A stretch of 64,000 nucleotides of DNA, taken from Streptomyces corallincola (GTDB lineage: Bacteria; Actinomycetota; Actinomycetes; Streptomycetales; Streptomycetaceae). The stretch is from positions 1-64,000 of the forward strand of contig NZ_JAHRXF010000018.1 of the NCBI RefSeq assembly GCF_019104725.1. Direction: 5' to 3'. The translations under genes and the position numbers were made by a program. The notes beneath the pieces are model-generated. The model made no database searches and was not told the origin of the DNA. It saw only the letters and a list, made by a program, of their open reading frames with translations. Numbering within the stretch: the first letter of the stretch is position 1; every line of letters begins with the position of its first letter. Below, piece by piece: positions 1,170 through 3,940 of this stretch.

Positions 1170-1298
1170 TCAGCCCGTGAACAACTGGGTTGCCTTCTGG
1201 ACGAGTTGGTACACGCCGTAGACCAGGGGGGCTCCCACCCACACCCAGGAGAGGACGATCAGACCTCGGCGGTCAGGCGGGCTGCTGTCGCTGGGCAT
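1170..1298 (-). CDS. MFS transporter small subunit (42 aa)
   Basis: This is a 42-residue single-span membrane peptide: MPSDSSPPDRRG, then a hydrophobic segment of about 18 residues (LIVLSWVWVGAPLVYGVY), then a short tail ending QLFTG. Peptides of this kind occur in Streptomyces directly after OFA-family oxalate/formate transporters and are annotated as an MFS transporter small subunit. The ATG at 1298 lies 26 bp inside the end of the upstream OFA gene in another frame. It is preceded by GAGGGAGG, so translation is probably coupled. It is inferred to stabilise or modulate the large subunit; no function is demonstrated by sequence. It is too short for most gene finders. Confidence 0.78.
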   Translation of the reverse strand: MPSDSSPPDRRGLIVLSWVWVGAPLVYGVYQLVQKATQLFTG

Positions 1299-2604
1299 CG
1301 GCGGCCTCCCTCGGGGCAGGGACGTGGTGATGGCGGGCGTTGACGGGGCGGACGAACTCGTTGGCTATGAAGCCGACGACGAGCAGGCCGATCATGATGG
1401 AGAAGGACAGGGTGTACAGCGACGAGCCGTGTTTGCCCGCCGACTCCTGCCGGTCGGCTATCCAGTTGACGATGAGCGGGCCGAGCACCCCGGCGGTGGA
1501 CCAGGCGGTCAGCAGCCGACCGTGGATGGCGCCGACCTGGTAGGTGCCGAACAGGTCCTTCAGATAGGCGGGGATGGTGGCGAAACCGCCGCCGTAGAAG
1601 GAGAGGATGACCAGCGCGCAGAGCACGAACAGGGGCTTGGCGGTGTCTCCGAACAGGGCGATCAGCAGGTACATCAGGGCGCCGACGCCGAGGTAGACGC
1701 GGTAGATGTTCTTGCGGCCGATGAGGTCGGAGGCGGACGACCAGCCGATCCGGCCCGCCATGTTGGCGGCGGAGAGCAGCGCGACGAACCCGGCGGCGGC
1801 CGAGACCGAGACGGGCGTCGAGGTGTCCGCGAAGAAGTCCGTGATCATCGGGGCGGCCTTCTCCAGGATGCCGATGCCCGCGGTGACGTTCATGCAGAGC
1901 ACGATCCACAGGCACCAGAACTGCGGGGTGCGTACCGCGCTGCGCGCCGAGACCTGCACCCCCTCGAAGGCGCTCGGCGCGTCCGCGACCGGCTTCGCGG
2001 TGCGCGGCACCCGGACCAGGAACACACCGAGCGACATGAACACCGCGTAGGCGAGGCCGTGCACGAGGAAGGCGAGCGCGATCCCGCTGTGCCCGGTGCC
2101 GAAGGAGTCGAGCATCTGCGCCGACCAGGGCGAGGCGATCAGCGCGCCGCCACCGAAGCCCATGATGGCGATGCCGGTGGCCATGCCGGGACGGTCCGGG
2201 AACCACTTGATGAGGGTGGACACCGGGGAGATGTAGCCGATGCCGAGGCCGATGCCGCCGACGAAGCCGTAGCCGAGGACGATCAGCCAGAACTGCTGGG
2301 TCTGGGCGCCGAGCGCGGAGATCAGGAAGCCGGACGAGAAGCAGATCAGGGCGACGGTCATCGCCCAGCGCGGCCCGTTGCGTTCCACGAAGGTGCCGCC
2401 GAACGCGGCGGACAGGCCGAGCATCACGATGGCGAGCTGGAAGGGCAACGCGCTCTGCGTGCCGTCGAGATGGAGCGCGGACTCCAGCGGCGGCTTGAAC
2501 ACGCTCCAGGCGTAGGCCTGACCGATGGACAGATGGACGGAGAGCGCGGCCGGCGGCACGAGCCAGCGGCTCCAGCCGGGGGGTGCGACAGGGGGACTGC
2601 TCAT
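1273..2604 (-). CDS. OFA-family MFS transporter (oxalate/formate antiporter-like)
   Basis: The product is 443 residues with about 12 predicted membrane spans. It belongs to the oxalate:formate antiporter (OFA) branch of the major facilitator superfamily. The N-terminal 'SVHLSIGQAYAWSVF' and the following 'FVERNGPRW' loop, 'GGIGLGIGYISPVSTLIKWFPDRPGMATG' region (helices 4-5) and 'DLIGRKNIYRVYLG' motif are characteristic. The start MSSPPVAPPG at 2604 was chosen because upstream codons are arginine/proline noise; the open frame itself runs to 3066. The stop overlaps the 42-aa small-subunit gene. It lies divergent from a formate dehydrogenase remnant and fdhD, so formate or oxalate exchange is the natural guess. 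Substrate specificity within the OFA family varies. Confidence 0.88.
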   Translation of the reverse strand: MSSPPVAPPGWSRWLVPPAALSVHLSIGQAYAWSVFKPPLESALHLDGTQSALPFQLAIVMLGLSAAFGGTFVERNGPRWAMTVALICFSSGFLISALGAQTQQFWLIVLGYGFVGGIGLGIGYISPVSTLIKWFPDRPGMATGIAIMGFGGGALIASPWSAQMLDSFGTGHSGIALAFLVHGLAYAVFMSLGVFLVRVPRTAKPVADAPSAFEGVQVSARSAVRTPQFWCLWIVLCMNVTAGIGILEKAAPMITDFFADTSTPVSVSAAAGFVALLSAANMAGRIGWSSASDLIGRKNIYRVYLGVGALMYLLIALFGDTAKPLFVLCALVILSFYGGGFATIPAYLKDLFGTYQVGAIHGRLLTAWSTAGVLGPLIVNWIADRQESAGKHGSSLYTLSFSIMIGLLVVGFIANEFVRPVNARHHHVPAPREAADAQRQQPA

Positions 2605-2786
2605 GGGGCGGGAGGGTAGGACGCGGCCCGGCGAAAGAGAAGGTGCGCGGCAGACCGTATGCGACGAACGGTAGGCCGAAAGCGGCCAACGGTCGGAGCC
2701 CGGACCCCGCCGACTCCCGCTCCCCTCGGTACGCGCCGGTGGAGGCGATCGGCGTCGCGTGGTACCCCCGGTTGGAGGCGGAGGCG

Positions 2787-3084
2787 GACAGCGAGCTGCA
2801 CCTCCGCGACTACGCCAAGCGCGTCCCCCGCCTCGCCGCGAGCGGCCGGTGCTCTGTCCTTCAGGAGCGTGTTCGCCACGCGTGCGGCCGGGACCCGGGC
2901 GGAGTCCCGGCGGACGGAGACGACCCCGGTGTGCGCATACTGCGGTGTGGGCCGCTCGCTCTCGCTCCCCGTGCAGGACAATGAGAACGTGAAGGTCACC
3001 TCGCCGCACGACGGCCGGGTGACTCACGGCAATCTCCGCATCAAGGGCCGTTTCGGCCACCAGCACGTACAGAACCGGGGCTGA
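2787..3084 (+). pseudogene. Decayed 2Fe-2S/4Fe-4S subunit of formate dehydrogenase (FdhA-like remnant)
   Basis: Two blocks in different frames match the iron-sulfur protein that normally precedes fdhD in streptomycetes. Frame A (2787-2822) encodes a DSELHLRDYAKR block, where intact proteins have NELYVRDYAKC. Frame B (2848-3084) starts with a GALSF-type block and continues with CAYCGVGR (about 2935-2955), NVKVTSPHDGRVTHGN and RIKGRFGHQHVQNRG to the stop. About 60 codons and the reading frame are lost between the blocks, together with the usual ferredoxin N-terminus. Three cluster-ligand cysteines are now arginine (CGC codons at 2820, 2953 and 3037), each one T-to-C transition away from TGC. 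The gene cannot build its Fe-S clusters. It ends 7 bp before the fdhD start. Confidence 0.8.
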
Positions 3085-3091
3085 TCAGATC

Positions 3092-3940
3092 ATGGGACGC
3101 GTCACGGAACGTCGGAAGGTCCTCCGGATTCGGGAGGGCGCGCTCAGCACCCGCCCGGACACCCTGGTGGCCGAGGAGCCACTGGAGATCCGGCTCAACG
3201 GGAAACCCCTGGCGATCACCATGCGCACGCCGGGCGACGACTTCGCGCTGGCGGCGGGGTTCCTGGTGAGCGAGGGCGTGCTGGCGAAGGCGTCCGATCT
3301 GCAGAACATCGTGTACTGCGCGGGTGCGACGGTGGACGGCTCGAACACGTACAACATCGTGGACGTGAAGACCGGCCCCGGTGTGGAGCTGCCCGACTTC
3401 ACGCTGGAGCGGAACGTGTACACCTCGTCGTCGTGCGGGCTGTGCGGCAAGGCCAGCCTGGACGCGGTGCGCACCACGGCCCGCTGGCCGATCGCGGACA
3501 ACCCCCCGGTCCGGGTCTCCCCCGAGCTGCTGGCCGAGCTGCCGGACCGGCTGCGGGAGGCGCAGCGGGTGTTCGACCGGACCGGCGGCCTGCACGCGGC
3601 GGCGCTGTTCACCGAGGACGGCGAGCTGCTGGACATCCGGGAGGACGTGGGGCGGCACAACGCGGTGGACAAGCTGGTCGGCCGCGCGCTCCAGGACGAC
3701 CGGCTGCCGTTGTCGCGGGTGATCCTGCTGGTGTCGGGCCGGGCGTCGTTCGAGCTGGCGCAGAAGGCCGTGATGGCCGGGATCCCGGTGCTGGCGGCGG
3801 TGTCGGCGCCGTCATCGCTCGCGGTGGACCTGGCGGCCGAGACCGGGCTGACGCTGGTGGGTTTCCTGCGCGGCAGCTCGATGAACGTGTACGCGGGCGA
3901 GGACCGCATGGCCCTGCGGCCGGCCCCCGCTCAGGGCTGA
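3092..3940 (+). CDS. fdhD: Formate dehydrogenase accessory sulfurtransferase FdhD
   Basis: This 282-residue FdhD protein passes sulfur from a cysteine desulfurase to the molybdenum cofactor, which formate dehydrogenases need for activity. The signatures are 'EEPLEIRLNGKPLAITMRTPGDDFALAAGFLVSEG', the redox-active CxxC loop Cys115-Gly-Leu-Cys118 in 'SSSCGLCGKASL', 'DVGRHNAVDKLVG', and the 'VSGRASFELAQKA' and 'GFLRGSSMNVYAG' segments. Length and motifs are complete, so the gene looks functional. This contrasts with the ruined iron-sulfur subunit gene 7 bp upstream. No formate dehydrogenase catalytic gene is visible in the window. FdhD may therefore serve another molybdo-enzyme elsewhere, or be a survivor awaiting decay. 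Confidence 0.95.
   Translation: MGRVTERRKVLRIREGALSTRPDTLVAEEPLEIRLNGKPLAITMRTPGDDFALAAGFLVSEGVLAKASDLQNIVYCAGATVDGSNTYNIVDVKTGPGVELPDFTLERNVYTSSSCGLCGKASLDAVRTTARWPIADNPPVRVSPELLAELPDRLREAQRVFDRTGGLHAAALFTEDGELLDIREDVGRHNAVDKLVGRALQDDRLPLSRVILLVSGRASFELAQKAVMAGIPVLAAVSAPSSLAVDLAAETGLTLVGFLRGSSMNVYAGEDRMALRPAPAQG

Follow-up and report, generated by a model that had tools for sequence, protein, structure and literature searches.

An eroded formate dehydrogenase Fe-S subunit gene in Streptomyces corallincola that probably holds the promoter of fdhD

The locus and its intact counterparts

The window, that is, the whole stretch of 64,000 nucleotides of Streptomyces corallincola DNA analysed here, lies on contig C22 of a draft genome (6.39 Mb, 111 contigs, 90% complete). 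A transporter gene and fdhD face away from each other in it, with 487 bases between the start codon of the former (2604) and that of the latter (3092), and two blocks of an Fe-S subunit gene are found in this interval. The features are as follows.

1273 to 2604, minus strand: MFS transporter (oxalate/formate antiporter or SfMCT-like), an open frame matching PF07690 (E 5.8e-30)
2637 to 2702, no strand: retained ancestral stretch of the transporter-operon interval, aligned with the same place in G033
2703 to 2773, no strand: unassigned junction, about 5.3 kb missing by comparison with G033
2774 to 2831, plus strand: pseudogene block 1, codons 136-155 of the Fe-S subunit gene, by alignment to the intact locus L180
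2820 to 2822, plus strand: Cys to Arg (CGC), first Cys of CILC, by alignment and from 45 intact operons
2829 to 2831, plus strand: Cys to Arg (CGC), second Cys of CILC, by alignment and from intact operons
2842 to 3084, plus strand: pseudogene block 2, codons 207-286 and stop, with a Molybdop_Fe4S4 domain (PF04879, E 1.2e-10)
2953 to 2955, plus strand: Cys244 to Arg (CGC), by codon comparison with intact operons
3037 to 3039, plus strand: Cys272 to Arg (CGC), by codon comparison with intact operons
3092 to 3940, plus strand: fdhD, open and under purifying selection (NF001943, 402 bits)

The transporter, whose start codon was picked by eye, scored 307.9 bits against the NCBIfam SfMCT model, slightly below the cut-off of 320; it is the divergent neighbour of a lost operon. 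Relatives of the locus were found via fdhD, and 80 of them were named (79 titled Streptomyces and one 'Actinobacteria bacterium'). At the thresholds chosen, these and the window comprise 45 intact operons and 36 non-intact loci; among the latter, L207 and L226 are cut off by contig edges, and split matches are the sole reason why L202 and L213 are counted here. The transporter match, absent in 5 of the 45 intact operons, ends 5.7-6.3 kb before fdhD, or 4.8-4.9 kb in L208 and L250, which are without the first operon gene. The intact interval holds a 2-dehydropantoate 2-reductase-like gene (43/45), a formate dehydrogenase catalytic subunit, a NuoE-NuoF fusion and an Fe-S protein, which has 286 residues in L035 and whose gene ends seven bases before fdhD. 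Compared with G033, the window has lost at the junction the genes for the reductase-like protein, the catalytic subunit and the NuoEF-like protein, together with roughly the first 135 codons of the Fe-S gene. Catalytic and NADH subunits are thus no longer encoded at this locus, where the transporter and fdhD remain.

In the host genome, which is 90% complete, the best match to the catalytic partner was a 31% relative, and no second copy of the Fe-S remnant was found. There are two Complex1_51K matches, of which that on C17, about 1.5 kb from a molybdopterin-oxidoreductase match, probably belongs to Complex I; that on C54 had no molybdopterin-oxidoreductase match nearby. A large molybdopterin oxidoreductase with one TGA within the match was also seen in this genome (G000:C25:15973-17538; L052, L053).

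The formate dehydrogenase alpha subunit is split in L035 (3730-9311) and other intact operons: in L035, TIGR01591 positions 1-50 (the 4Fe-4S domain) form the C-terminus of the HoxU-like Fe-S protein, and positions 52-672 are a separate gene two genes upstream. Searches of titles and abstract beginnings, with incomplete coverage of the literature, found no papers on this split subunit or on the Streptomyces operon. A GntR/FadR-like regulator gene, named by eye, lies near the operon (L035:70-747), and the palindrome-like CATACTGTAGACAATAT / ATACTGTAGACAGTAT precedes the operon (L035:3636-3652) and also occurs upstream in decayed loci such as L114 and L148; it is possible that this palindrome is the operator of the operon.

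The initial annotation described two homologous blocks in different frames with about 60 codons missing between them. The blocks could be aligned to the intact gene as described and their frames differ (2820 mod 3 is 0; 2971 mod 3 is 1), and the gap amounts by alignment to about 51-53 codons. Block 1 aligned to the intact gene of L180 with a local score of 28 (best of 200 shuffles, 18); six relatives gave scores of 23-28, in every case above what their own shuffles reached (maxima 18-23). Block 2, in which 2842-3081 corresponds to codons 207-286 and 3082-3084 to the stop, showed 77% identity to an intact protein over 77 residues (E 8e-33). A single intact frame with both the 2Fe-2S and the 4Fe-4S parts was not present in the window, only codons ~136-155 and 207-286. 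The arginines reported at 2820, 2953 and 3037 were borne out, each being CGC where the intact relatives have TGC in 45/45, and a fourth, absent from that annotation, was found at 2829, so that the CILC of the relatives reads RVPR. Both CILC cysteines are present in 45/45 intact operons (first, TGC in 45; second, TGC in 40 and TGT in 5). The condition set for rejecting the initial annotation, that relatives share these arginines in an open frame, did not hold, each of the 45 intact operons having Cys at the four positions. VCAYC in the window preserves two cysteines of the same motif, and the tail HQHVQNRG is present as described. The window copy shares its position beside fdhD, the PF04879 domain and the tail HVQNRG with the Fe-S subunits of Streptomyces NAD-linked formate dehydrogenases, which combine 2Fe-2S, 4Fe-4S and Molybdop_Fe4S4 parts and are HoxU/NuoG-like towards the N-terminus.

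Compared with the intact consensus over 79 codons, the window differs at 12, 13 and 15 first, second and third codon positions, whereas the intact copies differ on average at 1.9, 1.8 and 10.4; against five single intact relatives, the window has 11-14, 12-13 and 17-20 differences. The even spread against the consensus is what neutral decay predicts. For fdhD, the comparison with L180 gave 17, 12 and 88 differences over 275 codons. From these counts it follows that the stump drifts and that fdhD is under purifying selection. Given the frameshift, the lost codons, the lost Cys ligands and the even codon-position differences, we concluded from the sequence that the window copy is a pseudogene of the Fe-S subunit of a split NAD-linked formate dehydrogenase, in agreement with the initial annotation.

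Repeated decay in Streptomyces and drift towards GC

The 80-residue remnant matched 41 of 100 genomes, and 235 of 392 in a search of the genus, the weak matches among these including other molybdoenzymes. The DNA from 2604 to 3940, which includes fdhD, had matches in 392/392 genomes; three of these (G178, G240 and G311) are weak and possibly hit something other than fdhD. A tree built from fdhD with 124 rows (75 decayed, 45 intact and 4 unlabelled, hence 120 labelled) required at least 27 changes of state, at least 9 of them forced by starred branches, a count that does not separate loss from regain. The labels are clustered on the tree (27 changes against a shuffled mean of 36.3). By path, the nearest rows to the window are decayed loci, for instance that of S. 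bungoensis (0.19), and L080, also near the window, has other breakpoints; decay in the clade of the window may thus be part shared and part separate. Read from these comparisons, the operon has decayed repeatedly in Streptomyces.

Two observations concern fdhD itself. A stop codon lies inside the fdhD match in G018, G035, G054, G206, G038, G042 and others, where fdhD may be decaying or frameshifted, or the match may overrun its end. In Streptomyces sp. GESEQ-35 a single contig carries two fdhD loci, L204 and L251, separated by about 25 kb; base make-up is unusual at both, and the motif described below is found only in L251.

The substitution count used 58 better preserved decayed loci, aligned at 75% identity or more over no fewer than 150 columns (L204 and L206 left out), and a looser set of 116 of 122 decayed loci was set aside because of chance alignments in GC-rich DNA. 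The cells counted are loci with shared ancestry and not independent events. Ancestral A/T had become G/C in 598 of 3277 cells and G/C had become A/T in 245 of 5774, which makes the former about four times as frequent per site and places the equilibrium near 81% GC. At all four Cys codons counted, TGC to CGC was the commonest change: TGC and CGC stood at 26 and 25 loci for codon 272, 32 and 16 for codon 244, 28 and 12 for codon 240, and 30 and 10 for codon 237. Since T is the sole A/T base of TGC and its change to C gives CGC, Cys to Arg is the expected first step; the arginines need no special cause and are not a special signal under GC-ward drift. In columns invariant among intact genes, changes were found in 138/2069 third-position cells, 545/3454 first and 435/3528 second; both GC-rich columns and constraint at the nucleotide level would produce the fewer third-position changes.

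A conserved motif and a proposed fdhD leader within the stump

Comparison of decayed and intact loci revealed a short conserved motif in block 2, followed by further elements up to fdhD. These features, all on the plus strand, are listed below.

2971 to 2983: conserved motif GTGCAGGACAATG, pattern GTGCNGGA[CG]AATG
2977 to 2982: proposed -10 hexamer GACAAT, with a predicted transcription start near 2989-2990
2994 to 3024: inverted repeat GGTCACC / GGTGACT (2994-3000 and 3018-3024) of the proposed leader, from a 17-locus alignment
3046 to 3058: short inverted repeat GGCCG TTT CGGCC of the proposed leader, from the same alignment
3077 to 3086: GGGGCTGATC, probable extended Shine-Dalgarno sequence of fdhD, identical in 17/17 aligned decayed loci

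Among columns invariant in intact genes, the cells changed in 58 decayed loci numbered 794/4280 upstream of the motif, 10/692 in the motif and 324/4771 downstream. When only A/T columns nearly invariant in intact genes were taken, the figures were 429/1355 upstream (32%) and 7/346 in the motif (2%); in the leader they were 15/213 for the first stem, 46/264 for its loop, 20/56 for the second stem, 53/510 for the last seven codons and 121/823 for the remainder.

The motif was then scored in 58 loci with heavy decay. Of these, 49 come from genomes without a remnant match (the best 50 of 80 such genomes by fdhD score, minus L134, which duplicates L110); the remaining nine include L104, L112 and L113, where a partial protein match survives. 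The best GTGCNGGA[CG]AATG site within about 270 bases had no mismatch in 35 loci, one in 10, two in 2, three in 2 and four to five in 9. A site with at most one mismatch was thus present in 45/58, and the reversed and reverse-complement controls each gave 0/58. In 11 of the 58 there was no site with two mismatches or fewer in the ~270 bp, and a shortened version, for example GGGACAATG or GAGAATG, is present in several of the loci failing the search. By the intact/non-intact division, the motif was found in 44/45 intact operons and 34/36 non-intact loci, two of the 36 being without it. Sites with at most one mismatch lie 50 to 178 bases before the fdhD start, which indicates that the sequence between can be shortened. 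In fdhD loci from outside the genus, the motif was absent in the 28 scored, the best sites having 3-5 mismatches. A long inverted repeat, TGTCCTGCACACGCG / CGCGTGTGCAGGACA, mirrors the motif upstream of fdhD in L150; the similar locus L145 showed no such repeat.

In intact genes the motif bases encode V-Q-D-N-E. Codon usage there is constrained: Asn253 is AAT in 44/45 intact operons, compared with 19 of the gene's 374 other Asn codons, and Val282, directly before the fdhD start, is GTA in 43/45, compared with 21 of 1180 elsewhere. This count is restricted to the 45 intact operons, whose rows are related, and no p-value is given; it replaced an earlier set of 48 sequences (AAT 43, GTA 45) that had included the damaged-operon genes L003 and L087.

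A start at 2989-2990 would give fdhD a leader of about 102 bases. An alignment of 17 decayed loci (125 columns) shows GGTCACC/GGTGACC, GGCCG/CGGC and the run CCAGCACGTACAGAACCGGGGCTGATCA preserved with few exceptions. The element GGGGCTGATC, which resembles an extended Shine-Dalgarno sequence, includes the stop codon of the pseudogene. Conservation thus extends in part into the leader past the motif, a feature that a promoter by itself leaves unexplained, and a leader RNA structure is possible. The conserved stretch could accordingly be an RNA leader with hairpins near the ribosome-binding site, or a regulator's operator controlling fdhD, and not only a promoter. The inverted repeats speak for such a structure, their pairs being preserved in 99.6% of 272 cells, compared with 18-47% when the partners are slid, and the A/T columns of the first stem change half as often as the loop and other leader (15/213 against 167/1087). 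However, shuffled partners paired in 99.4%, and among the 17 sequences no compensatory pair changes and no covariation beyond shuffles were found; the A/T column of the second stem changes often (20/56), though mostly from G-U to G-C; the fold z-scores were -0.8 for the window and +1.4 for L180; and the motif-to-start distance in many decayed loci is too short for all hairpins. Rfam gave no family at the gathering score in window positions 2600-3200; a hit to Guanidine-II, with 14.3 bits (E 2.5) where the gathering score is 32, was taken as chance. We regard this explanation as unlikely.

It is decidedly improbable that the stump is a plain, fairly recent neutral pseudogene with a functionless tail not yet decayed. 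The even codon-position differences of the window copy and the 243 nt of block 2 that can still be aligned would suit it, and shared ancestry, indicated by the clustering of the decayed state (27 against 36.3), adds to the likeness of decayed loci. Against it, change across 58 decayed loci is about 13-fold rarer in the motif than upstream of it, a difference also seen on A/T columns alone, the motif survives in loci with little or no other homology, and rare codons are constrained in intact genes. The initial annotation had taken the recognisable tail as a sign that decay is recent. This does not follow, because the tail is the proposed leader of fdhD and at least partly under selection for that gene, the proposed promoter core and the start region being kept where the upstream part is far more decayed. 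Its reading as a pseudogene stands, and its dating is not supported.

The ATG of the motif might instead start an upstream leader peptide, for which the nearly invariant AATG and the frame shared with fdhD in 37/79 loci could be cited. This was rejected, as there was no consistent frame over the 79 loci: in 27 loci the frame was no longer than 10 codons, in 21 it reached over 60 bases into fdhD, in 17 it was fused in frame, in 10 it ended ahead of fdhD and in 4 it overlapped the fdhD start, and GGA lies only 2-3 nt upstream of the ATG; the probability of such a peptide is very small. A sequencing or assembly artefact, conceivable in a draft of 111 contigs that is 90% complete, can practically be dismissed in view of the many substitutions, the two deletions, the missing whole operon and the same decay class in other assemblies, including the single-contig genomes G013 and G040.

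The motif at other genes and the probable role of the stump

The sequence GTGCNGGASAATG was found at 336 sites (fdhD sites included) in 99 of 101 Streptomyces genomes, and read backwards at 63 sites in 36 of them. One exact copy in the host genome had suggested that the motif is exclusive to fdhD, an idea that was withdrawn because other genes carry it. Thirty sites with their loci, the first listed per genome and not a random sample, were taken, and 29 were scored (L294 was left out). At 12 of the 29, a start codon with a long Streptomyces-like frame lies 6-7 nt after GA[CG]AAT, which is the spacing that a leaderless transcript needs between a -10 element and its start. Six of the 12 are NAD(P)H-quinone dehydrogenase genes, two by NF005883 and four by the same first residues; these are apparently leaderless, to judge from the position of the motif. 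In their loci (L292, L304, L305, L309, L310 and L315, near position 1500) the site reads GTGCGGGACAATG and a GTG start lies 7 nt past the hexamer. Three of the 12 genes start MPSALPDGEPVP and are presumably HemW; there is one each in L295, L301 and L306. The other 17 sites include several fdhD loci, four sites located 49-69 nt before a small gene, MAG[ST]SHGHTPAA, and at least one (L313) that sits within an unrelated coding frame.

In S. coelicolor, 21% of primary transcription starts are leaderless and the -10 element is TANNNT (PMC4895711, part of the source), which is reported for S. lividans as well (PMC6742748, likewise in part). HrdB sites, in the part of PMC6344877 available, have conserved A at -11 and T at -7, GG at -14/-13 above expectation and a -35 that is mostly missing or poorly conserved. 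With the hexamer placed as proposed, A stands at -11 in 47/47 loci and T at -7 in 46/47, figures that are partly circular since these 47 of the 58 loci were preselected at two motif mismatches or fewer; the motif has one G at -13. At -12 there is G, not T, in 47/47 loci, and for this reason the sequence is described as working like a -10 promoter region and is not filed as a TANNNT promoter. A -35 NTGACC was not found, only weak GG/C preferences upstream of the motif in heavily decayed loci, and a two-hexamer promoter scan of the window gave 0 sites. As far as these partial sources go (PMC4895711, PMC6344877), the motif is like TANNNT/HrdB promoters in A at -11, T at -7, a weak or absent -35 and its place 6-7 nt from leaderless-type starts at other loci; it is unlike them in G at -12, the nearly fixed upstream GTGC, the G after the hexamer and its position within the coding sequence of the upstream gene. 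The recX promoter within recA of M. tuberculosis (PMC3062782, in the part available) is likewise a downstream gene's promoter inside an upstream gene, but recA is alive, whereas the fdhD promoter would outlive its host gene, and in many species. Apart from a review, nothing on point about retained or intragenic promoters was found in the literature, as far as the partial texts showed.

Taken together, GTGCAGGACAATG is most probably the -10 region of a promoter that belongs to fdhD itself and lies within the gene before it; that it starts fdhD transcription is what we infer. It is conceivable, though somewhat doubtful, that GTGCNGGA[CG]AATG with G at -12 and no -35 forms a Streptomyces promoter class driving both fdhD, from within the preceding gene, and leaderless genes such as that for NAD(P)H-quinone dehydrogenase, and that through repeated loss of the operon the 3' end of the host gene has become a dedicated, partly structured, non-coding fdhD leader kept by selection.

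FdhD has been described as a sulfurtransferase and chaperone of bis-MGD formate dehydrogenases, and some subgroups serve FdhF-type enzymes (PMC6239281); YdeP is not named in the part of that account available. An FdhF/YdeP-type oxidoreductase (TIGR01701) scored above the cut-off in 61/61 Streptomyces genomes, that of the window included (C64). G004 has such a gene in the same orientation as fdhD and about 240 bases before it, and in L260 and L262, outside the genus, the sequence before fdhD resembles, by eye, the end of the C64 protein. An FdhF/YdeP-type enzyme is likely a second client of FdhD, which would give fdhD a reason to have its own promoter.

As a whole, we consider, with a probability of about 0.8, that the stump is the eroded Fe-S gene of a deleted operon, kept for an embedded fdhD promoter, leader and ribosome-binding site. 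On this explanation, the NAD-linked formate dehydrogenase operon would have been deleted and eroded in the lineage of the window, as in many other Streptomyces, and the stump would persist because its last ~115 bases hold the fdhD promoter with its -10 region, the leader and the ribosome-binding site. FdhD would remain needed, probably for the remaining FdhF/YdeP-type oxidoreductase; selection would hold the promoter core and, less strongly, the leader, and the upstream part would drift towards GC, turning TGC (Cys) into CGC (Arg).

A pseudogene alone is ordinary; the notable part is a promoter that appears to outlive its host gene in dozens of loci. Dozens of species at many stages of decay amount to a natural mutagenesis of one locus, and such a series separates the needs of the protein from those of the next gene's expression and exposes a promoter otherwise hidden by coding constraint. 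A well-preserved piece of a pseudogene is accordingly no clock, and a promoter in the stump would offer a reason for fdhD outliving the adjacent enzyme.
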